Part shown: positions 8,052 through 55,564 of the stretch, one piece after another
Numbering within the stretch: position 1 is the first letter of the stretch
How the letters are laid out: the number at the start of each line of letters is the position of its first letter
Program-made: the position numbers and the translations under genes
Notes under the pieces: generated by a model
Database searches by the model: none
What the model saw: only the letters and a program-made list of their open reading frames with translations
What the model was told of the DNA's origin: nothing
IMG/VR virus record: IMGVR_UViG_3300034251_000009
Coordinates: 1-55,564 of that record
Source of the DNA: a virus
Direction: 5' to 3' (one strand)
DNA length: 55,564 nt

Positions 8052-8084
8052 GGGCGCGACCGAGATAGCAGCTCGGTCGCGCCC
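8052..8084 (+). terminator. Perfect 13-bp hairpin between the micro-genes and the translocase gene
   Basis: GGGCGCGACCGAG at 8052-8064 pairs perfectly with CTCGGTCGCGCCC at 8072-8084 around a 7-base loop, followed by CTTCCCCTTG. It looks like an intrinsic terminator with a weak U tract. No promoter is visible between it and the translocase start at 8115, so it may act as an attenuator setting translocase level. Confidence 0.75.
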
Positions 8085-8114: not shown

Positions 8115-9854
8115 ATGGCAGAGCAGAAGGACGAGCACAGCCTCGGTGAAGTGTTGTGGCGTTACGTCGCAGGGCGCCCCCTGGATGGCCGCGACGGATA
8201 CCCGTACCTGCGCGCGGGGGCCGGCCTCGTGGCAGGCTGGCAGCGGCAGGCGTGGCGTCTTGTCGTCCCGACGGCGGGTGTTGCGACTGCCATGGACCCT
8301 GACTTCCAGCACGTCACCGGCGTTGGCGGTCTCGCTCTGCTCGCGGCGGTTAGGGGCCGCCAGCAGGTCGTCCGGCGGCGGTTCCACCGTGAGTACATCG
8401 CCCCGACGTTGGCTGCGATACAGCCGCCGCTGGGGATGCAGGGCGATGGCGTGACCCTGTACGTGGATGCGTCCCTGGGCAACCTGACCCCTCGGCTGGC
8501 CAAGCCGTTGTCGCCGGCGGAGGAGCGTCTGCGCGTCCTCTACGGCGAGCGGATCGAGCCGGTCGTGCGGTGGTTGCCGGAGCAGATACAGCGTGGTCTG
8601 TGGGCGGTGCAGCGTGCGGCACGGCCGGCGACATCGCGCATGGAGGTGTTCCGGCGTCCGGGTGAGCAGTTGGGTCCGCGTATCGAGCTGGTCGCGCGGA
8701 CGCCGTATCTGACCAGTGAGCAGCGGCTGCTCGTGTCGTCGATCATCAACAGCAAGATTCCGGTGTCTGACCTGGTGGAGTCGTGGCATCAGGTCGGCCC
8801 GAAGGTGACCGCCCGGTGGGTCGTGCGTAAGCGGCCGCCGTCGACCGTCGGGTACGACCTGGTTCTGGAGCACATGGCCCATCTGAAGGAGTGGGAGTTC
8901 TACATCGGCCAAGGTGCCGGGAACCGGCCGGTGGTCATCTCGCTGAAGGACGACTCTCCGCACATCGCCGTCAGCGCAGGTACCGGCGCCGGGAAGAGCG
9001 TGCTGGCCATGCTCATCGCGGTGCAGATCCTGGCTCGCGGTGGCGAGGTGCTGATCCTGGACCGCAAGGGCTCTCATCGATGGGCACTCGGCATGGAGGG
9101 CGTGGACTACTGCACGAAGGCCCACCAGATGCACGAGGCGCTGATCAAGTCGGCCGCGGAGGCAGATCAGCGCAACGACGATGCCCTGCACGAGGAGGAG
9201 GACTGGGATCCGGGCAAGCGCAAGCTGGTGATCTGCGAGGAGCTGAACGCGACGATCGGTCAGCTGAACAACTACTGGGCGGAGATCCGGGAGAAGAGCG
9301 ACCCGAAGAAGTCGCCGGCGGTGTCGGCCCTGGCTGATCTGCTGTTCATGGGTCGTTCGGCGAAGTACAACGTTCTGGCGATCGCTCAGATGCTGACGGC
9401 CCGGGCGATCGGCGGGCCGGAGGCGCGGGAGAACTTCGGGGTGCGGTGTCTGGCCCGGTACACCTCGAACAACTGGAAGATGCTGGTGCCGGAGGCTGCG
9501 ATGCCCCGGTCGTCACGGACGCTGGGCCGGTGGCAGGTAGTAATCGGTGGGCAGGCTACTGAAGTTCAGGTGGCCTTCCTGACGAACGCGCAGGCTCGCG
9601 CCCTCGGAAATCCGCGAAAAGACCCTGATAGCGCCCTGGGCAGCAATGTCCCTGGGGACGGGGACATGATGACCTTGCGGGACGCGATCGATGCCGGTGT
9701 TTTGCCCTGGTCGTACGAGGCGGCCAAGAAGCGGCTGCAGCGCGATGTCGGTAACCCACCGTCATCGCGCGGGAAGCGGGCCAACGCGGATCTGTACGCG
9801 CGCGCCGACCTGGCGGCGTGGGTGGTCCGGTCCCGGCAGGAGGTTCCGTCGTGA
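8115..9854 (+). CDS. FtsK/SpoIIIE-family DNA translocase, TraB/Tra-like
   Basis: 579 residues. Walker A is GTGAGKS at about 289-295, in SAGTGAGKSVLAML. A Walker B-like KLVICEE lies near 370-376. FtsK-like features include a hydrophobic LILDRKGSHRWAL after Walker A and AQMLTARAIGG downstream. The N-terminal 250 residues are not classical FtsK and contain only weakly hydrophobic stretches. The C-terminal 60 residues (DAGVLPWSYEAAKKRLQRDVG, in pieces) may form a winged helix for DNA recognition, as in Streptomyces TraB, which moves double-stranded plasmid DNA between mycelial cells. Next to an SpdB-like gene this supports a transfer role. No relaxase or Rep gene accompanies it. Confidence 0.85.
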   Translation: MAEQKDEHSLGEVLWRYVAGRPLDGRDGYPYLRAGAGLVAGWQRQAWRLVVPTAGVATAMDPDFQHVTGVGGLALLAAVRGRQQVVRRRFHREYIAPTLAAIQPPLGMQGDGVTLYVDASLGNLTPRLAKPLSPAEERLRVLYGERIEPVVRWLPEQIQRGLWAVQRAARPATSRMEVFRRPGEQLGPRIELVARTPYLTSEQRLLVSSIINSKIPVSDLVESWHQVGPKVTARWVVRKRPPSTVGYDLVLEHMAHLKEWEFYIGQGAGNRPVVISLKDDSPHIAVSAGTGAGKSVLAMLIAVQILARGGEVLILDRKGSHRWALGMEGVDYCTKAHQMHEALIKSAAEADQRNDDALHEEEDWDPGKRKLVICEELNATIGQLNNYWAEIREKSDPKKSPAVSALADLLFMGRSAKYNVLAIAQMLTARAIGGPEARENFGVRCLARYTSNNWKMLVPEAAMPRSSRTLGRWQVVIGGQATEVQVAFLTNAQARALGNPRKDPDSALGSNVPGDGDMMTLRDAIDAGVLPWSYEAAKKRLQRDVGNPPSSRGKRANADLYARADLAAWVVRSRQEVPS

Positions 9855-10137: not shown

Positions 10138-10173
10138 GCCCCGCCCCACGCCGGAGAAGGCATAGGGCGGGGC
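10138..10173. terminator. Bidirectional terminator between the converging operons
   Basis: GCCCCGCCC at 10138-10146 pairs with GGGCGGGGC at 10165-10173, with an inner GCC/GGC pair. TTT follows on the plus strand and the AAAA at 10132-10135 gives a U run for leftward transcripts. It ends both the rightward transfer-like operon and the long leftward late operon. Confidence 0.85.
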
Positions 10174-10698: not shown

Positions 10699-11028
10699 AT
10701 GGACCGGATCGACCTGACGCACGAGTTCGGCGTCGACCGGCAGCGGGCCTGGCGGGACCGGCCCACCGCGGCGTCAAACCTGCAGCGGGTGGTGTTCGGC
10801 CGGCTGGCTGACGGCCGCTGGTTCGCCGATGCCGGCGACCGCGAGGGCGCGTACGTGTTCAACGCCGACGAGCGTGGCGAGCAGCTGGCGTTGCGGCTGG
10901 CGTACCGGTGGATGCGCGAGTCGGGCCGGCGGTGGTTCGCGACGCCGGCGGCGTACGACAACCGGTCGGAGCCGGTCGACGGGTTGCCCTGGGTGCGCCG
11001 CGGCGGTGAGTGGTTCCTCGAGGACTGA
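10699..11028 (+). CDS. Hypothetical protein, rightward in the lysis region
   Basis: 109 residues, rich in Trp, Arg and Asp (RAWRDRP, LADGRWFADAGD, WMRESGRRWFATPAAYDN, WVRRGGEWFLED). It looks like a compact soluble domain and uses the same GC-rich third positions as neighbours. Orientation is opposite to the surrounding late genes, so it is likely expressed at another time, for example in lysogeny. No family recognised. Confidence 0.7.
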   Translation: MDRIDLTHEFGVDRQRAWRDRPTAASNLQRVVFGRLADGRWFADAGDREGAYVFNADERGEQLALRLAYRWMRESGRRWFATPAAYDNRSEPVDGLPWVRRGGEWFLED

Positions 11029-11068
11029 GAAGCCCGAGTCGGCGTACGAGGGGTGGAACACTGTGCGG

Positions 11069-11332
11069 ATGACCGATGCGGCCGCCAGTAGTGAACTGCC
11101 CAGCCCGATGTACGTCACCCTGCGCTGGGACCGCTACCCGACCTGGCCATCAGCAGCCATCGGGTCGATCGTCGACAACCTCGACGAGGCGACTGCAGGC
11201 GCTCAGCTGGAGACGGAGAGGGCTCAGGCCCGCGGTTCTTCCGCGCGGTTCACGGTTCACGCAGTGCAGTGGCCCCCGTTGCACGACACTGCCGAACGGC
11301 ACGCCCGAGAATTACACAGGGGTAGTTCGTGA
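11069..11332 (+). CDS. Hypothetical protein
   Basis: 87 residues from ATG at 11069; an in-frame GTG at 11063 with GAGGGG upstream is an equally good start. The sequence MYVTLRWDRYPTWP followed by an amphipathic helix and SSARFTVHAVQWPPL suggests a small alpha/beta domain. Follows the gene at 10699 by 40 bases. Function unknown. Confidence 0.6.
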   Translation: MTDAAASSELPSPMYVTLRWDRYPTWPSAAIGSIVDNLDEATAGAQLETERAQARGSSARFTVHAVQWPPLHDTAERHARELHRGSS

Positions 11333-11415
11333 TCTTCGGCCCGGGTCGCAGGTAGCGTCGCCGGGGTGGAGCCCGTGGTGGAGAGCGCGCTGCAGACCCC
11401 CGGCAGACGCTGCCA

Positions 11416-11967
11416 TCAGCCGTCTAACTTATCCTTGCGGTACCTTTCACGCTTGGCGGCTCTCATGCACTCGCGACAACGCTTGCCTTTGCTGTCGCGA
11501 TAGGTGTTTTCAGCATCGAACCTATGCCCGCGCTTACACTCCGTCTTGAATCGGGATCGCTTCCCGAACTTTTCTTCTTGCTTTTCTCTTTCGCGATCGG
11601 CGTGGCACTTTCGGCAGCTTCTAACGTATCCGCGCCGCGAGCCTGGTCGAGGCTGGCGATAGGTGTTCTCCTCATCCCACGGGTGACCCCTCCTGCAGGT
11701 TCTGGCAGGCTCCGGCAGGGCCGGTCGCTTCTCCCACCGACGTCTGCGCAGGTTCTCCTCGCGGCTCACATCCTCAAGATGCGCCGGTGATGCGCATGCA
11801 GGCTTACGGCACAGGTGATCTACCTCGCCAGCGGGCGGCCCCACGAAAATCTCGTACATCGTTCGGTGCACGAATTTGGTGGTCCCGTTGTACCAACTCC
11901 TGCCGTACCCGTGCAAATGCGGACCGGTCCATATTAGGCAAGGTCCGATCAGCGGCCGTCCGAGCAC
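11416..11967 (-). CDS. HNH homing endonuclease
   Basis: About 183 residues from a GTG at 11967. The HNH core is VHRTMYEIFVGPPAGEVDHL, followed by CRKPACASPAHLEDVSREEN. Downstream are two repeated CxRGH...ENTYR zinc-finger-like units (CRRGHPWDEENTYR, CKRGHRFDAENTYR) each with CRxC, a hallmark of free-standing phage HNH proteins. The N terminus (CLIWTG) lacks the usual leader, so the start may be off. The gene and its flanks are noticeably lower in GC than the rest of the phage, indicating recent acquisition. Confidence 0.88.
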   Translation of the reverse strand: MLGRPLIGPCLIWTGPHLHGYGRSWYNGTTKFVHRTMYEIFVGPPAGEVDHLCRKPACASPAHLEDVSREENLRRRRWEKRPALPEPARTCRRGHPWDEENTYRQPRPGSRRGYVRSCRKCHADREREKQEEKFGKRSRFKTECKRGHRFDAENTYRDSKGKRCRECMRAAKRERYRKDKLDG

Positions 11968-12217
11968 GTCGTGAGCTGTCGGTGCCGGATGAATGATAAG
12001 TCTTGCCGACAGCCGCTCAGCGGGGGATGGTCTATGTGTAGAGATACCAATAGTCTATCAGTTGAATGCGCTATACGAATTGACTTGATGACTACCTACA
12101 AAGACTCAACGCAGGCTTCCTGAACGGCACGACGGTGGTGCACGACCGGGCGGTCATCGCCGTCGTGCAGCGGGTCCTCGGCGACGCGATGGCGACCCTG
12201 GAGCCGGCCGACGCTGC
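11968..12217. other. AT-rich flank of the HNH insertion
   Basis: From about 11990 to 12110 the sequence is AT-rich (for example TCTATGTGTAGAGATACC) and holds no credible gene. From 12084 the plus strand carries the 3' remnant of the split gene. The boundary of the insertion is probably between 12080 and 12115. Confidence 0.5.
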
Positions 12218-12460
12218 CTAGGGTGTTGAATCCGGCAGGGCCAGGCCGTCGGCCCGTTCGCGGACCAGTGCCGAGATCACGCTCGGGGGCAGCGGGAACG
12301 ACGGACCGCGGTCGATCTCATCAGCCATCATCCGCAGTGCCGCGGCGACCCCCGCTCCGACGATCTCGTCGCGGTGGACAGTGCCGAGATCTCGACCGAT
12401 CCGCGAAATGGCAACGTCTTCGATCGCCTCAGCGGCGGCCGTGATCATATCGTCGGCCAT
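12218..12460 (-). CDS. Hypothetical protein
   Basis: 80 residues beginning MADDMITAAAEAIEDVAISR, with an alanine-rich helical middle (AGVAAALRMMADEIDRG) and a proline-containing end. ATG at 12460 has GAGGGG upstream. A 17-bp palindrome at 12478-12494 lies immediately upstream. Its 3' end overlaps the stop of the rightward remnant by a few bases. Function unknown. Confidence 0.7.
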   Translation of the reverse strand: MADDMITAAAEAIEDVAISRIGRDLGTVHRDEIVGAGVAAALRMMADEIDRGPSFPLPPSVISALVRERADGLALPDSTP

Positions 12461-12477
12461 GGAACCCCTCGATTGAT

Positions 12478-12494
12478 AGATGAACTGTTCATCT
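12478..12494. promoter_or_regulatory. 17-bp perfect palindrome upstream of the gene at 12460
   Basis: AGATGAAC at 12478-12485, a central T, and GTTCATCT at 12487-12494. It is 18 bases upstream of the start codon and is best read as a dimeric regulator site. The GAAC...GTTC spacing does not match the actinobacterial LexA box. Confidence 0.55.
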
Positions 12495-12533
12495 GGTCAC
12501 GGATTTGTGGTCGTTGACGCAGCCTGACGGTGG

Positions 12534-12656
12534 GACGCCCCGGGGCCTGTCACGAGACGCCGCGAAGAGCTCGTGAGTCCGGCACCCGCCCTGCTACCTG
12601 TGGGGGCACCTGTGGCGGGGCGGGACCGGTTGCCGGACGGCAGGCCCCGGGGCGTC
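12534..12656. ncRNA. Nested inverted-repeat element, candidate structured RNA
   Basis: An outer 16-bp perfect stem (12534-12549 with 12641-12656) encloses two hairpins. The first pairs TCACGAG at 12550-12556 with CTCGTGA at 12570-12576 (13-base loop). The second pairs GTCCGGCA at 12577-12584 with TGCCGGAC at 12631-12638 and, inside, CCCGCCC at 12585-12591 with GGGCGGG at 12618-12624. Helices abut, leaving only GG unpaired at the junction, so either strand folds as a three-way junction. It lies between two leftward genes. It could be a noncoding RNA, a processing site or a small element with terminal inverted repeats. Confidence 0.55.
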
Positions 12657-12666
12657 GTCTGTGGGA

Positions 12667-13149
12667 TCAGCAGGTCTGTGACGGTGGCGGCGGCACCGGG
12701 TTGCGCTGACGGTCCGCCTCGATGCCCGCCCGTTCCTGGCGGATCCGGTCCCGCTGCGCCTCGTTGGCGTCGAGGACCTTGGACGTTTCCGTCGACACCT
12801 TCAGCAGGTTCGCGAACTCCGCCTCCCGCCGGTCACGGTCACCGTCCGGGTTGCCGAGGCTGGCCAGCAGCCGCGCCATGGCGGCCTGATCGGCGCGGTA
12901 CCGTGCCCGGTCGGAGTCGTCGATACGCCCCTCGGCGTCGTTGAGCCGGCGGTCTTCGGCGGCCGCGTTGGCCCGGGCCGCGGTCGATACCGCGGACTGG
13001 TCGGCGTAGGCGGCCAGGCAACCGGACACCCGCGCGTAGCCGTAGGTGAGCCCACCGAGGACGAGCAGGTAGACCAGCATGCCGACGCTGATGATCCGTA
13101 CGGCTTTCGGGGTGCCGAGGGCCCCCCAGAATCCGGTCTTGTCGGGCAT
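12667..13149 (-). CDS. Membrane-anchored coiled-coil protein of the lysis region
   Basis: 160 residues. One transmembrane helix at about 17-40, then a long charged coiled coil (ARANAAAEDRRLNDAEGRI ... EAQRDRIRQERAGIEADRQR) and a proline-rich end with a terminal cysteine. The N-in, helix-then-coiled-coil layout resembles an i-spanin, but hosts of this type have no outer membrane of the enteric kind. Likely a lysis accessory or envelope protein. Confidence 0.7.
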   Translation of the reverse strand: MPDKTGFWGALGTPKAVRIISVGMLVYLLVLGGLTYGYARVSGCLAAYADQSAVSTAARANAAAEDRRLNDAEGRIDDSDRARYRADQAAMARLLASLGNPDGDRDRREAEFANLLKVSTETSKVLDANEAQRDRIRQERAGIEADRQRNPVPPPPSQTC

Positions 13150-13281
13150 TCAGCGTCGCCTTCCGTGGTGTTGTCGTGTTGCCCATTCCCAGGCTTTGCG
13201 GCCGCCCCAGCCGAGGGCCGCCCAGCCGCCGACCATCAGCGCGGACAGGGCCACGTAGGTGAGCGCGTCGGTGCCGCTCAT
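13150..13281 (-). CDS. Small membrane protein
   Basis: 43 residues, MSGTDALTYVALSALMVGGW at the start, one hydrophobic helix (6-26) and a basic tail (RQHHGRRR). Its stop is directly followed by the ATG of the gene at 13149. Probable lysis-region accessory protein. Confidence 0.7.
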   Translation of the reverse strand: MSGTDALTYVALSALMVGGWAALGWGGRKAWEWATRQHHGRRR

Positions 13282-13556
13282 CGGCCCGCTCCCGGGGCGG
13301 TCGGCGCGACAGGAGGGTCGGGTGGGGTGTCGCCACCGGGCGCCGCGGCGACGGTCTTCCAGGGCGCGTACAGAGCGGTGTACGGGGCGAGCGGGATTCC
13401 CCAGAAGTAGAACGGCGGCAGAGATTCGAGGACCTTGGCGCCGGTGGTGAACAGCTGGATGACAGCGGCGCCGCCGTAGACGATCCAGAAGCCCATCACA
13501 CACAGCATGATCAGATCCCGGACCTGCTCGGCCCTGGTGCGAGTGGTTGGGGCCAA
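13278..13556 (-). CDS. Small membrane protein of the lysis region
   Basis: Up to 92 residues from a TTG at 13556 (APTTRTRAEQVRDL as a basic cytoplasmic start), or 76 from an ATG at 13508; neither has a strong ribosome site. Contains a hydrophobic helix (MLCVMGFWIVYGGAAVIQLF region) and a second weaker hydrophobic stretch (PPFYFWGIPLAPYTALY), then a proline-rich tail. It overlaps the next gene by four bases. Possibly a second holin component. Confidence 0.65.
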   Translation of the reverse strand: MAPTTRTRAEQVRDLIMLCVMGFWIVYGGAAVIQLFTTGAKVLESLPPFYFWGIPLAPYTALYAPWKTVAAAPGGDTPPDPPVAPTAPGAGR

Positions 13557-13558
13557 AG

Positions 13559-14350
13559 CTAGGACTGCAGCCGGGCGACGAGCTCGTCGGCGACCTGCTG
13601 GGCCAGATCGGCCGGGATCGCCGCCGCGATCGCCTGCGGGTCGAGGCCGGCCAGCACCCCGGCGACGATCGAGGCCTCGTCGGTGAAGTCCTTGCCGGTC
13701 AGGGCCTTGAGCTGGGCGAGGACCTGGTCGAGTTTGGTGCTGACCTCGGCGGCCTTGACGCTGGCGTTGTGGGCCTGGTTCCAGACGTCGGCGATGGCGA
13801 ACTTGGCCTGCACCGTCTTGTTGGTCTTCGCGTCCGCCCGCCAGGCGGGGTTGGCGATGACGTCGTCGTTCCAGTCCATGTCGTCCTCCTCGGGGAGCAG
13901 GCCCCACGGCCTGGTGTCGGCTTCCTGCGCGCTGGTGTAGCGGGCGCTGAAGTGAGCGTGGTGGTCGTGCGGGTTGGAGCCGGTGTAGGCCCGGGCGGTC
14001 CAGCCCCAGGAGCGGGACCAGATGCGCCGGTTGAAGATGACGTTCTGCAGCCGGTCGTCCTGGCCGGCACGGTGCCGCAGGACGATCCGCTGAACGGCCT
14101 TCTCCATGGAGAAGCCGGCCGGCCAGGGCCCGGAGTTGTCGACGTCGATCGCGTGGACCTCGTTGCGGCTGTCCGGGTCCTTGGCGCGCATCGCGGCTGT
14201 CGTCTCGTCGCCGATGTGATCGGAGGTGCCACCGGCCACATGCGCTGCGTCGGCGATGGACCCGTCGGAGGCCTTGTCGCGGCCGGCCGCGAGGGTGTTG
14301 AACTCGCCGCGCAGAGCCACCAGGCACGGCACCAGCACCCAGTCAGCCAT
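13559..14350 (-). CDS. Endolysin, M15-type peptidase domain
   Basis: 263 residues from ATG at 14350, which overlaps the end of the small acidic gene. The peptidase domain shows metal-site candidates SDH (H45), HAIDVD (D69/D71) and HDHHAHFS (H131/H133) in the order expected for M15 D-Ala-D-Ala carboxypeptidase-like enzymes. The C-terminal 100 residues (NPAWRADAKTNKTVQ, later LDPQAIAAAIPADLAQQVADELVARL in pieces) are typical of actinophage lysins and may mediate wall binding or oligomerisation. It sits among small membrane proteins, as expected for a lysis cassette. Cleavage bond is inferred. Confidence 0.82.
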   Translation of the reverse strand: MADWVLVPCLVALRGEFNTLAAGRDKASDGSIADAAHVAGGTSDHIGDETTAAMRAKDPDSRNEVHAIDVDNSGPWPAGFSMEKAVQRIVLRHRAGQDDRLQNVIFNRRIWSRSWGWTARAYTGSNPHDHHAHFSARYTSAQEADTRPWGLLPEEDDMDWNDDVIANPAWRADAKTNKTVQAKFAIADVWNQAHNASVKAAEVSTKLDQVLAQLKALTGKDFTDEASIVAGVLAGLDPQAIAAAIPADLAQQVADELVARLQS

Positions 14351-33508: not shown

Positions 33509-35146
33509 TCAGCGAAGCACGAGAATGCTGTGATCTTGCTCGGGTTCGGGCTCCCAGGAGCCCTTGGCCATGGCGTCGAGGCGCGCCTGCCACGACAGGG
33601 CTCCGGCCATGGCCAGGTCGATCTTTCGGGGCGAGTCCGGCCGTTCCTTGGTCATCACCCAGAGGAACTTGCCCTCGTCGTCCTGCATGTTCGTGTTGCG
33701 CTTCTGCGCGGCGCCGATGTGCAGCAGGAAGTCGTCGTCACCATCGTTGGTGACCTCACCGGCCTTGATGGCCTGGGCGTAGGAGCGGCACATCAGCGCC
33801 GTGCGGCGCAGGTTGCGCGAGTCGGTGTAGAACTCGGCAACGACCTTGGGCCCGTGCCGGCCCGAATAGTCGGCCAGGCGGGCGTCCCAACCACGCGCCG
33901 GGTCGCCGTAGAAGCGGACCACGTGCCAATAGTCGAACATCTCGGCGACGGCCTGGTCGACCTCGACGACCGGGACCTCGCCATCGGGCAGGTCCTCGGG
34001 CACCCACAGGCCGAAGCGCTGCTGGAACCCGGTCTCGATCTCCGTGACGACCAGCGCGGTGGTGTCCTTCCACCGGCTGCCGTCCAGCCCAGCCGTCACC
34101 GGCGCGCCCCGCGGGATCCGGTAGCCGGGACGGCTCAGTTCGCGCCATCGTTTGGCGTCGAAAGCCTGCGCGTCGGTCTGGGTCCACCGGTTGAGCCAGA
34201 CCCGCTCGAGGTAGGACAGGTCGGCGCCGACCCGATCCCACTGCTTGGCGATACCGCGCAGGTCCGACCAGGCCGCGGCGGGGCCGGATGCCTCGCGGAC
34301 CGCTTCGATCCGGCCGGCCAAGGTGTTCAGGTCGTGTCCGTCCGACGCCTGGCGGTGGAAGTAGAAGAGCTCGGGCTCCTCGACCTTGCCCTTGGCGATC
34401 AGCTCGGCCTCGTCCTTGTCCTGCTCGGCCACCGACCCGCCGCCGGGCTCGCCGGCGGTGGTGATGCCCATCGACCAGGGGTCGTCGAGCGGGCGCTTCG
34501 GGAGGTTGGCCTCCATCGTCTCGTAGGCGGCCAGGTGCCGGGCCATGTTGAGCCGGTGGGTCTCGTCGTAACCCTGGAACGTCGTCCGGGCGCCGTCACG
34601 GGCATTCGGCGACTGCGCCAGCGGCACCGCCTTACCGTCGGCGCGGCCGCGCTCGTCCAGCCGGATGATGCGCTCCAGGCCGGAGTCGAACAGGTCGGCG
34701 TCCGGACCGTCGGTGCAGACCACGTACAGGACGTTGTAGGCCAGCTCCTCGACCTGGTCAGCGGTGTAGGCCAGCAACGGGATGTACGGGTCGCGGACCG
34801 GTCGGCCGACCGGGTTGCCATAGGCGTCCCAGCCGTCGAAGCGGACCTCAGCCTCCGGGTGCAGCTCGGCGTAGGCGATCCAGCCGAGCAGCTCCGTCTT
34901 CGCGGTGCCCTTGCGCCAGGAGATCCGCACCCGGCGGAACCGGCGGCGGCCGGCCTGCTCGTGTCCGCGGGGGTAGACCTCGTACGCCTTGTAGATCACG
35001 GCGCGTTTCTCGTCGTCCAGCCTGGCCGGCTGGCCCTTCAGCGAGCCGGGACCGAAGACCGCGCGTTCCTCGATGAGCTGGCAGACCTGCCGGCCGAGCG
35101 TCGGCCACGGCGCCTCGTCCAGCGGCGGGGTGACGAACGTACTCAC
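33509..35146 (-). CDS. Terminase large subunit
   Basis: 545 residues from the GTG at 35146 (STFVTPPLDEAPW), which overlaps the small-subunit stop. ATPase motif SWRKGTAKTE at about 76-85, Walker B-like YDETH with D194/E195, and an RNase-H-like nuclease start TAGLDGSRWKDTTALV. It drives ATP-dependent DNA packaging and cleavage. The small-subunit gene and an HNH gene precede it. Confidence 0.92.
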   Translation of the reverse strand: MSTFVTPPLDEAPWPTLGRQVCQLIEERAVFGPGSLKGQPARLDDEKRAVIYKAYEVYPRGHEQAGRRRFRRVRISWRKGTAKTELLGWIAYAELHPEAEVRFDGWDAYGNPVGRPVRDPYIPLLAYTADQVEELAYNVLYVVCTDGPDADLFDSGLERIIRLDERGRADGKAVPLAQSPNARDGARTTFQGYDETHRLNMARHLAAYETMEANLPKRPLDDPWSMGITTAGEPGGGSVAEQDKDEAELIAKGKVEEPELFYFHRQASDGHDLNTLAGRIEAVREASGPAAAWSDLRGIAKQWDRVGADLSYLERVWLNRWTQTDAQAFDAKRWRELSRPGYRIPRGAPVTAGLDGSRWKDTTALVVTEIETGFQQRFGLWVPEDLPDGEVPVVEVDQAVAEMFDYWHVVRFYGDPARGWDARLADYSGRHGPKVVAEFYTDSRNLRRTALMCRSYAQAIKAGEVTNDGDDDFLLHIGAAQKRNTNMQDDEGKFLWVMTKERPDSPRKIDLAMAGALSWQARLDAMAKGSWEPEPEQDHSILVLR

Positions 35147-35598
35147 ACCGCACGCAGCGCGGAACGCGGATCCGTCGCGCCGGCGACCGGAGCCACCGGC
35201 GGGGTCGTGCCGCGGCGACGCTGCCCGCGGTCCTGTGCGTCCTCGCTGCGCTCGATCTCCCACTGCAATCTACGGCGATCGATGGGGGTCAAGCCGAAGC
35301 ACTGCCGCTGCTGGCGGATCTCGGCAGCGATCGCCGTCCGCAGCTTCGCCTCACCGCAGTGCCAAAAGTCGTCGACCAGGACGGCCAGGGAGAACAGGCC
35401 GTGCCGGTCGGAGTCGTCGTACTCGGGCGCCATCGGCGAGGTCCAGATGTCGCGCCACCAGGCCCGGGTCTGCTCGTGCCAGAGCCGCGTCGGAAGCGGC
35501 GGGGCCTCGAGGGTGGGGTCGGCCGAGAGGGTCGACGCGGTGCTGGCCCGGTTCCGGCGAGCGCGGGCCGACGGGTGCTTGGGAGCAGGTCCTGGCAT
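35143..35598 (-). CDS. Terminase small subunit
   Basis: 151 residues from ATG at 35598, beginning MPGPAPKHPSARARRNRAST, a common start for actinophage small terminase proteins. The middle (LFSLAVLVDDFWHCGEAKLRTAIAAEIRQQRQCFGL in pieces) is helical. It recognises viral DNA for packaging. Starts upstream of the packaging site are expected nearby. Confidence 0.8.
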   Translation of the reverse strand: MPGPAPKHPSARARRNRASTASTLSADPTLEAPPLPTRLWHEQTRAWWRDIWTSPMAPEYDDSDRHGLFSLAVLVDDFWHCGEAKLRTAIAAEIRQQRQCFGLTPIDRRRLQWEIERSEDAQDRGQRRRGTTPPVAPVAGATDPRSALRAV

Positions 35599-45167: not shown

Positions 45168-45204
45168 GGGCGGGGCTGGATCGGGGAAGGACCCAGCCCC
45201 GCCC
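45168..45204 (-). terminator. GC-rich hairpin between SSB-like and polymerase genes
   Basis: GGGCGGGGCTGG at 45168-45179 pairs perfectly with CCAGCCCCGCCC at 45193-45204. No U tract follows on the minus strand. Likely an attenuator or RNA-stability element that lowers polymerase expression relative to the SSB-like protein. Confidence 0.65.
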
Positions 45205-53547: not shown

Positions 53548-53955
53548 ATGCACAAGCTACGTATCGTCGGCATCGGGGCCGCCATCACGTCCGCCCTCTG
53601 TGCCATCGCAGCCATCTGCGCCCACCACTACGAACTGCCGTTGGCCAGGGCATATCTGGTCGTGACCGCTGCCGGTGCGGGGTTCTCGGTCATGCCGATC
53701 TACTGCACGACGGTCGCCGTACGTGCCTTGCGGGGAGCCCGCGAAGAGGTCCACGACATCGTCACCGCGGAGACCCGGGCCCTGCATCGGGCCATGGTCG
53801 TCACCATGGAGCAATACGGTGACAGGAGGGCCGTAGACGCGGTCATTGCCGCCGAACGGCGCCACGCGCTGAACGAACGGGGCGTGGAAACCACCGATTT
53901 GCAGTACGTCGGACGGGTGAACACCGGCAACGTGACGCCCATACGTAAACCCTGA
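53548..53955 (+). CDS. Two-span membrane protein between repressor and integrase
   Basis: 135 residues from ATG at 53548 with GGGGAGG upstream. Two hydrophobic helices at about 5-25 and 35-58 (AAITSALCAIAAICA; LARAYLVVTAAGAGFSVMPI), then a helical cytoplasmic tail (REEVHDIVTAETRALHRAMV). Its stop overlaps the integrase ATG, so both are coexpressed, probably in lysogens. Superinfection exclusion is one possibility, not shown. Confidence 0.75.
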   Translation: MHKLRIVGIGAAITSALCAIAAICAHHYELPLARAYLVVTAAGAGFSVMPIYCTTVAVRALRGAREEVHDIVTAETRALHRAMVVTMEQYGDRRAVDAVIAAERRHALNERGVETTDLQYVGRVNTGNVTPIRKP

Positions 53956-55415
53956 TGGCCGGTAGTCGTGCACGGCTGGCCGCGGTGCCGCAACGGCCGC
54001 TGCGGGTGGTGCTCTACGTGCGGGTCAGCGCGCTGATGGGCCGCGGGGGACGCGAGAACTTCCACAGCCCGGACGTGCAGATCGGTGCGATGCGCCGGCT
54101 GACCGAGAAGATGCGCGAGATCGCCGTCGTCCAGGACCTCGACCGCGGCGGTCGCAACTTCGACCGTGAGGGCATCATCCGGATCCGCCGTATGGCCGAG
54201 CGCGGTGAGGTGGACGCCCTGGCCGTCTATGACGTCAGCCGTCTCGGCCGCAACGTGCGCGAGTCCCTGGAGTTCCTCGCCGACCTCGCCGACCGCGGGG
54301 TGGTCATCCTCAGCGCCAGCGAGCACGTCGACACCTCCGATCCCGCAGGCCGGCTGATGCTGACCAACATGCTGGCCATCGCCGAGTACCGCTCGGATGA
54401 GATCGGCCGGTCCTGGTCGGCGGCGATCGCCCGGCGCGCCGAGAAGGGCGTGCACCACGGCAACCCGATCGGCTACACCCGCGTGGACGGCAAGCTGCGC
54501 CCCGACCCGATCCTGGGCCCGGCCGTGGCAAAGATGTGGGCCGACTACGCCGCCGGGCTGCCCATTTCGCAGATCTGCCGCGAGCTCGCCGCGGTGCGGG
54601 GCGGGAAGATGCAGGCCAGCATCGTCAAGAAGGCGTTCCGCCGGCCCGTCTACCTCGGCCATGTGGTCGCCGACGGGCAGGTCGTCGTCCGTGACGCGCA
54701 CCCCGCGCTGGTCGACCAGGCCACCTGGGAGATCGTGCAGTTGCGTCTGGCCGCCGACCGGACCACCCCGCCCCGGGCGCTGCAGGTGACCTGGGCGCTG
54801 GTCGGTATCGCCTTCTGCCCCTGCGGTGCCCGCCTGCAGCGCAACCCACGCCTGCGCAAGGGTGTGCTCGAGCAGCGGCTCAAGTGCGGCAAGGGCCCGT
54901 CGCGGGGCATCGTCGGCGAGCACTGCCCGGGTATCGGGTTCCCGATGATGGACCGGATCCAGGACGAGGTGCTGCGCCAGGTCGCCGAGTACGTCCGGCA
55001 GTTGCGTACCGACGACGTGGCCCGCTCCGAGCAGCTGCTGCGCCGCACCAACGCGATGGCCGACGGCCGGGCGCTGCGCCGCCGCCTGTCCCACGTCCAG
55101 GAGGCTGTCGCCAAGCTGGCCCGGTCCTGGGCCCTGGGCGACCTGACCGACGACGAGTTCCGCCCGGCGACCGCGCAGCTGCGCTCGGAGGCGGAGGCGT
55201 TGCGGGCCCGGCTGGGCGAGCTCGGTGATGTCGAGTCGCGGCCCACCCCGGAGGAGGCGGCCTCGGCGGCGGAGGCGCTGGTGGAGATGTGGCCGGACAT
55301 GCTGGTCTCGGAGCGGAACCTGGCGCTGCGGGCGTTGGTGGAGCGGGTGGTGGTCAGGCGCGCGGATCGGTGGCGTGAGCCGGAGGCCGACCGGGTCATG
55401 ATCACCTGGCGTTAG
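53955..55415 (+). CDS. int: Large serine integrase
   Basis: 486 residues. Catalytic domain start LYVRVSALMGRGG with Ser25; VYDVSRLGRNVRESLEFL and DPAGRLMLTNMLAIAEYRSDE are further resolvase-domain signatures. A recombinase domain (GYTRVDGKLRPDPILGPAV) and a zinc ribbon (CPCGARLQRN ... LKCGKG ... HC) with coiled coil follow. It would recombine attP with a host attB without high-energy cofactors. attP should lie within the short noncoding gap next to its 3' end. Confidence 0.95.
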   Translation: MAGSRARLAAVPQRPLRVVLYVRVSALMGRGGRENFHSPDVQIGAMRRLTEKMREIAVVQDLDRGGRNFDREGIIRIRRMAERGEVDALAVYDVSRLGRNVRESLEFLADLADRGVVILSASEHVDTSDPAGRLMLTNMLAIAEYRSDEIGRSWSAAIARRAEKGVHHGNPIGYTRVDGKLRPDPILGPAVAKMWADYAAGLPISQICRELAAVRGGKMQASIVKKAFRRPVYLGHVVADGQVVVRDAHPALVDQATWEIVQLRLAADRTTPPRALQVTWALVGIAFCPCGARLQRNPRLRKGVLEQRLKCGKGPSRGIVGEHCPGIGFPMMDRIQDEVLRQVAEYVRQLRTDDVARSEQLLRRTNAMADGRALRRRLSHVQEAVAKLARSWALGDLTDDEFRPATAQLRSEAEALRARLGELGDVESRPTPEEAASAAEALVEMWPDMLVSERNLALRALVERVVVRRADRWREPEADRVMITWR

Positions 55416-55525
55416 TGCACGTCTGCGGGCTCTGACTACCGTGCAGGCAGTCCATCATCCAACACCGTTGTGCCTGGTCAAGGCCCTTTCGGGGTGGCGT
55501 TGTCACCACGCGGCAGGTGACCCCT
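55416..55525. other. Noncoding segment after the integrase; expected attP region
   Basis: On the circle this segment (continuing as 1-88 of the left copy) lies between the integrase stop and the converging leftward gene. Serine-integrase attP sites usually flank the int gene, so attP is expected here by position. A 6-bp inverted pair (TGCACG at 55416-55421, CGTGCA at 55439-55444) is visible, but the roughly 50-bp dyad typical of attP cannot be fixed without the attachment-site pair. Confidence 0.45.
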
Positions 55526-55564
55526 CTATTCGGTGGGGTCCTTCACCTCGGTTGCGGTGTCACC
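55438..55564. repeat. Terminal direct repeat of the contig (circular overlap), right copy
   Basis: Exact copy of 1-127. Joining the copies places the end of the serine integrase (55415) 110 bases upstream of the end of the leftward gene at 89-682, leaving one short noncoding segment where attP is expected. Confidence 0.95.

Follow-up and report, generated by a model that had tools for sequence, protein, structure and literature searches.

Transcription terminators are usually simple hairpins with short loops. In high-GC actinobacteria, other kinds of transcript ends have been described. In Streptomyces clavuligerus, 353 of the 535 highly structured transcript 3′ ends were U-poor, and these ends are thought to be either I-shaped terminators or ends protected after Rho-dependent termination (PMC8269248). 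A review reports that mycobacterial genes mostly carry U-less I-shaped terminators at most 50 bp from the stop codon, yet it also refers to the work of Czyz et al., for whom the U-tract is necessary; termination by U-less stems is disputed (PMC12288462). In Streptomyces avermitilis, U-lacking ends were weaker than U-rich ones (PMC8780764), and a survey of 13 genomes found that operons commonly end in clusters of hairpins devoid of a U-run (PMC8355165).

Here, we analyzed a branched element lying at 12534-12656 in a viral DNA of 55,564 nucleotides, the whole of IMG/VR record IMGVR_UViG_3300034251_000009, hereafter referred to as the window. The element resembles the I-shaped or HS-U-lack ends of S. 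clavuligerus in its stable GC-rich stem, located a few nucleotides past a stop codon where a gene run ends and followed by no U-tract (PMC8269248, PMC12288462). In contrast to these short-loop hairpins, it is a three-way junction whose interior spans 91 nt. Like hairpin-cluster terminators, it has several close hairpins downstream of a stop and would not need a U-run, but its two inner hairpins sit inside a common outer stem (PMC8355165). The Streptomyces and mycobacterial findings are applied to this phage by analogy. We propose that the element is probably a U-less transcript-end structure of the leftward late mRNA, acting as a terminator or as a 3′ stabilizer, a reading to which we give somewhat better than even credence.

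Genomic context of the element

The two ends of the window were identical over 127 bp (1-127 = 55438-55564). This suggests a complete genome, either circularly closed or terminally redundant, and the genome of about 55.4 kb held in the record is probably complete. GC content was 69%, and the genes included those for portal, terminase, protease, major head, and tape-measure proteins, replication genes, and a serine integrase. Searching genomes for prophages with the terminase yielded 24 loci, and the terminase relatives were mostly actinobacterial; a search for prophages in genomes with a tail protein found none. The window looks like the genome of an actinobacterial tailed phage, its GC content and its terminase relatives pointing to an actinobacterial host.

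The late genes, structural and lysis, read leftward and finish with ORF 12667-13149. Reading of its sequence gave an N-terminal membrane segment and a coiled-coil-like tail. This protein had no match at E values up to 1 in 18 records of relatives, none in viral contigs and phage records, and one weak match among 394 genomes. Ten nucleotides separate its stop codon from the element, which lies outside the called genes with a leftward ORF on each side. On the left side, ORF 12218-12460 appeared weakly coding from codon statistics, and a palindrome, GATGAACTGTTCATC, stands just upstream of it at 12479-12493 and is operator-like. A 123-aa ORF of the plus strand (12573-12944) overlaps the element, but most of it runs antisense to ORF 12667-13149. 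The whole stretch from the conserved plus-strand ORF to the late genes, including the HNH endonuclease ORF, was longer than in relatives such as L079 and L080.

Table 1. Positions of the element, its parts, and the neighboring or otherwise relevant features. Positions refer to the window unless a relative is named.
Feature	Position	Strand	Sequence or description	Basis or remark
Whole element	12534-12656	-	Proposed to end the transcript of the leftward late/lysis run; branched, U-less	Top fold in window, 10 nt from stop
Left arm of outer stem	12534-12549	.	GACGCCCCGGGGCCTG	Perfect inverted repeat with 12641-12656
Right arm of outer stem	12641-12656	.	CAGGCCCCGGGGCGTC	Perfect inverted repeat with 12534-12549
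Shorter inner hairpin	12550-12576	.	TCACGAG / CTCGTGA stem	Minimum-energy and centroid folds, both strands; boundaries approximate, differing by 1-2 bases between strands
Longer inner hairpin	12577-12638	.	GTCCGGCA... / TGCCGGAC stem, 6-nt bulge, then GC-rich stem	Folds
Last gene of leftward late/lysis run	12667-13149	-	160 aa	Weak phrog_798 match
HNH endonuclease ORF	11416-11967			phrog_826, E 5.7e-40
Conserved ORF	10699-11028	+		
FtsK-like gene	8115-9854			Within conserved region
FtsK-side hairpin, window	10138-10173			
FtsK-side hairpin, L077	6363-6398			
FtsK-side hairpin, L078	1818-1847			
FtsK-side hairpin, L079	10287-10314			
FtsK-side hairpin, L080	10375-10405			
FtsK-side hairpin, L081	9884-9927			
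FtsK-side hairpin, L082	9753-9782			
FtsK-side hairpin, L083	9844-9880			
Terminase gene	33509-35263			
Primase/helicase and polymerase genes	40-45 kb			
Serine integrase	53955-55415			

Structure and strength of the fold

The element is compact, with clear ends and a size of 123 nt. Its two outer arms are complementary at 16 of 16 positions and are separated by 91 nt, which hold the two inner hairpins. Each arm contains GCCCCGGGGC, a 10-bp palindrome (at 12537 and 12644) with no further copies in the window. In the longer inner hairpin, two C-A mismatches of the minus strand correspond to G-U pairs on the plus strand; we weighed this as a possible indication of the strand and dropped it, two positions carrying no weight.

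Both strands gave a strong branched fold: −94 kcal/mol for the plus strand (z −7.28) and −86.6 kcal/mol for the minus strand (z −6.59), with none of 200 shuffles equaling the fold in either case. When the entire window was scanned in 4-base steps with a correction for GC content, the segment 12533-12662 ranked first on both strands. The longest perfect arms found in 120 first-order Markov random windows measured 11-15 bp, and 16 bp was never reached. Because of these shuffles, of the rank in the whole window, and of the arm lengths in random windows, we conclude that the element exceeds chance.

An earlier note, made on the same DNA, had described a perfect 16-bp outer stem around two abutting hairpins, in non-coding DNA between leftward genes, and had advised folding both strands. 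Its coordinates turned out to be exact, and the placement and the fold on each strand bore it out. Its figure of about 38 pairs was exceeded by the minus-strand fold of the element, which contained 48 pairs.

Comparison with terminators and with other hairpins of the window and its relatives

No U-tract followed the stem on either side of the element, and a simple terminator scan did not report it. A canonical intrinsic terminator has a U-tract directly after the stem, and the element is thus not of this kind. I-shaped terminators have a stable stem within about 50 nt downstream of the stop codon, and here the stem lies at 10 nt with a z of about −7. The 8 nt that follow their stem contain fewer than three U, and the minus strand reads CCACCGTC there, with one U. 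They also have a simple stem with a short loop, and here the outer stem encloses 91 nt and two hairpins; for this reason, we call the element a variant and not a plain I-shaped member. The leftward sense is not singled out by folding, since the fold was slightly stronger on the plus strand.

Other hairpins showed a similar placement. Eight perfect inverted repeats in the window measured at least 12 bp. Five of these were intergenic, as compared with a fraction of 0.108 expected from the share of intergenic DNA (binomial p = 6e-4, a rough value, as the gene calls came from a simple composition rule and author-chosen ORFs). Six of the eight lay 6-71 nt past a co-directional stop codon, and several inverted repeats of the window had no U-tract, for example, those at 45168-45204 and 8052-8084.

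Relatives were found through the FtsK-like gene, common to seven viral contigs at 68-85% identity, and through the tail protein, present in other contigs. In this region, their operons end in strong GC hairpins. The last late gene of L079 is followed, 8 nt past its stop, by a hairpin of 12 bp lacking a U-tract (11290-11322), and in L036 a hairpin lies just beyond the stop of its leftward gene run. In the window and in all seven FtsK relatives, the rightward genes of the FtsK side were separated from a leftward gene by a strong GC hairpin, and its flanks were often A/T-rich, as in a bidirectional terminator. Like this canonical bidirectional terminator of its own genome, the element forms a strong GC hairpin where an operon ends. 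However, the FtsK-side terminator is a simple hairpin with T/A-rich flanks, syntenic in relatives, whereas the element is separate and 2.4 kb away. We considered whether the element was the counterpart of the terminator that relatives have between the FtsK side and a holin-like gene and rejected this, the window having its own hairpin at 10138-10173.

Some additional features were noticed outside the window. An operator-like arrangement, in which two copies of GGTGTCATGACACC lie at a distance of 26 or 25 bp, occurs in L036 (18871-18909), L079 (6605-6644), and L080 (6828-6867), and is absent from the window beyond chance. In L036, the segment 13518-13603, after lysis-region genes, had an Rfam tRNA match of 35 bits and was not reported by ARAGORN. 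L034 (7240-7367) contains another long-spacer element, an intergenic inverted repeat whose perfect 23-bp arms are separated by 82 nt.

Searches for copies and homologues

The element had no match by blastn in phages and plasmids, and no second copy in the window. The pattern formed by its two arms was found nowhere in IMG/VR viral contigs; a looser version gave five unrelated places in viral contigs, whose interiors showed no likeness. Among 397 actinobacterial genomes of one order, six weak matches were obtained, versus seven for the reversed-sequence control, and a single weak match came from a set of 394 actinobacterial genomes of the class. Comparison with 20 viral records and 16 genomes returned short GC-rich matches only. 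Collectively, there was no sequence homologue of the element in the phages, plasmids, viral records, and genome samples searched. No Rfam family reached its gathering score, and a loose threshold gave one chance-level match. A one-sequence covariance model, run on related loci totaling about 0.83 Mb and on 200 genomes, gave no further match that exceeded chance. Last, no simple sigma-70-type promoter-like site was present in 11000-14000.

Discussion

Transcription of the element from the late genes, and its terminating or protecting role, are what we infer from its position and from the hairpin context. RNA polymerase would read the structural and lysis genes leftward, past the stop at 12667, and into the element, where the two inner hairpins would fold first and the 16-bp outer stem would close last. 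The stem might then make the polymerase pause and release with no need of a U-tract, a mechanism put forward for the I-shaped terminators of high-GC actinobacteria. Alternatively, it might block 3′-to-5′ exonucleases after Rho-dependent termination taking place further on, and so fix the mRNA end. The element would thereby separate the late genes from ORFs 12218-12460 and 11416-11967. The earlier suggestion of a structured phage RNA is compatible with this, as the element, 10 nt past the last late/lysis stop, would be transcribed if the run is read to its end. The earlier view that no known terminator explains the element holds for the classical U-tract kind, but not in general, since transcripts of high-GC actinobacteria commonly finish in structured U-poor 3′ ends (PMC8269248, PMC12288462).

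A possibility was that the branched fold is itself the functional part of a phage non-coding RNA or of a 3′-UTR-derived small RNA, for instance, a stable processed RNA. The top fold of the window on both strands and a compact 123-nt three-way junction with clear ends would suit such an RNA. However, Rfam provided no family, either at gathering score or above chance at the loose threshold, the single-sequence covariance model was equally without other matches above chance, and neither a sequence homologue nor a simple sigma-70-type promoter-like site was found in the material covered. We regard this possibility as unlikely.

Somewhat less likely still is an element acting as DNA, that is, a cruciform or two palindromic sites bound by protein (the GCCCCGGGGC copies) serving regulation, replication, or packaging. 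The good fold on both strands and a 10-bp palindrome in each arm and nowhere else in the window speak for it. Yet a GC-only 10-mer occurring twice is about what chance gives in a genome of 69% GC, and a two-site operator needs neither perfect 16-bp complementarity of the arms nor two enclosed hairpins. In addition, the terminase and replication genes are about 21 kb or more away, and the serine integrase is at 53955-55415. The packaging or replication element put forward in the earlier note received no support, with the terminase about 21 kb off and the primase/helicase and polymerase genes at 40-45 kb.

Miniature inverted-repeat transposable elements (MITEs) are short non-coding segments with perfect terminal inverted repeats. 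The element is likewise short and non-coding, and we considered that it might be a small non-autonomous MITE-like insertion behind the late genes, with its 16-bp arms as termini. The perfect repeats (16/16), the 123-bp size, the intergenic site, and the absence of the element from the nearest relatives would all fit, as would the longer stretch between ORF 10699-11028 and the late genes, with its HNH endonuclease ORF, as compared with L079 and L080. In contrast to MITEs, the element is single-copy, no other copy having been found in the window, in phages and plasmids, or in the two-arm search of viral contigs, and no related transposase was found. Its matches in the 397 genomes did not outnumber those of the reversed sequence, and the 394 genomes gave a single weak one. 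The arms are not bordered by a direct repeat or target-site duplication, the flanks reading ...ACGGTGG and GTCTGTGG... The small mobile element evoked earlier is, with copies no more numerous than in the control and no target-site duplication, highly improbable. Least credible of all is a functionless by-product of local sequence history, which would account for the lack of detectable conservation, but not for a fold that none of 200 shuffles reached on either strand, a 16-bp arm seen in no random window, and a site right after a stop codon, as for other long hairpins.

We return to a transcript-end structure of the late mRNA as the most economical reading. In a more specific form of this proposal, the branched RNA would end the late mRNA through its three-way junction, stopping polymerase or exonuclease without a U-tract, and would possibly be released as a stable small RNA in lysis; we consider this form distinctly improbable. 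Most likely, the element is unusual mainly in being branched and is otherwise an elaborate form of an ordinary transcript-end signal. How transcription ends without a U-tract in high-GC actinobacteria and their phages is disputed (PMC12288462), and the element would offer a clean natural test piece for this question.
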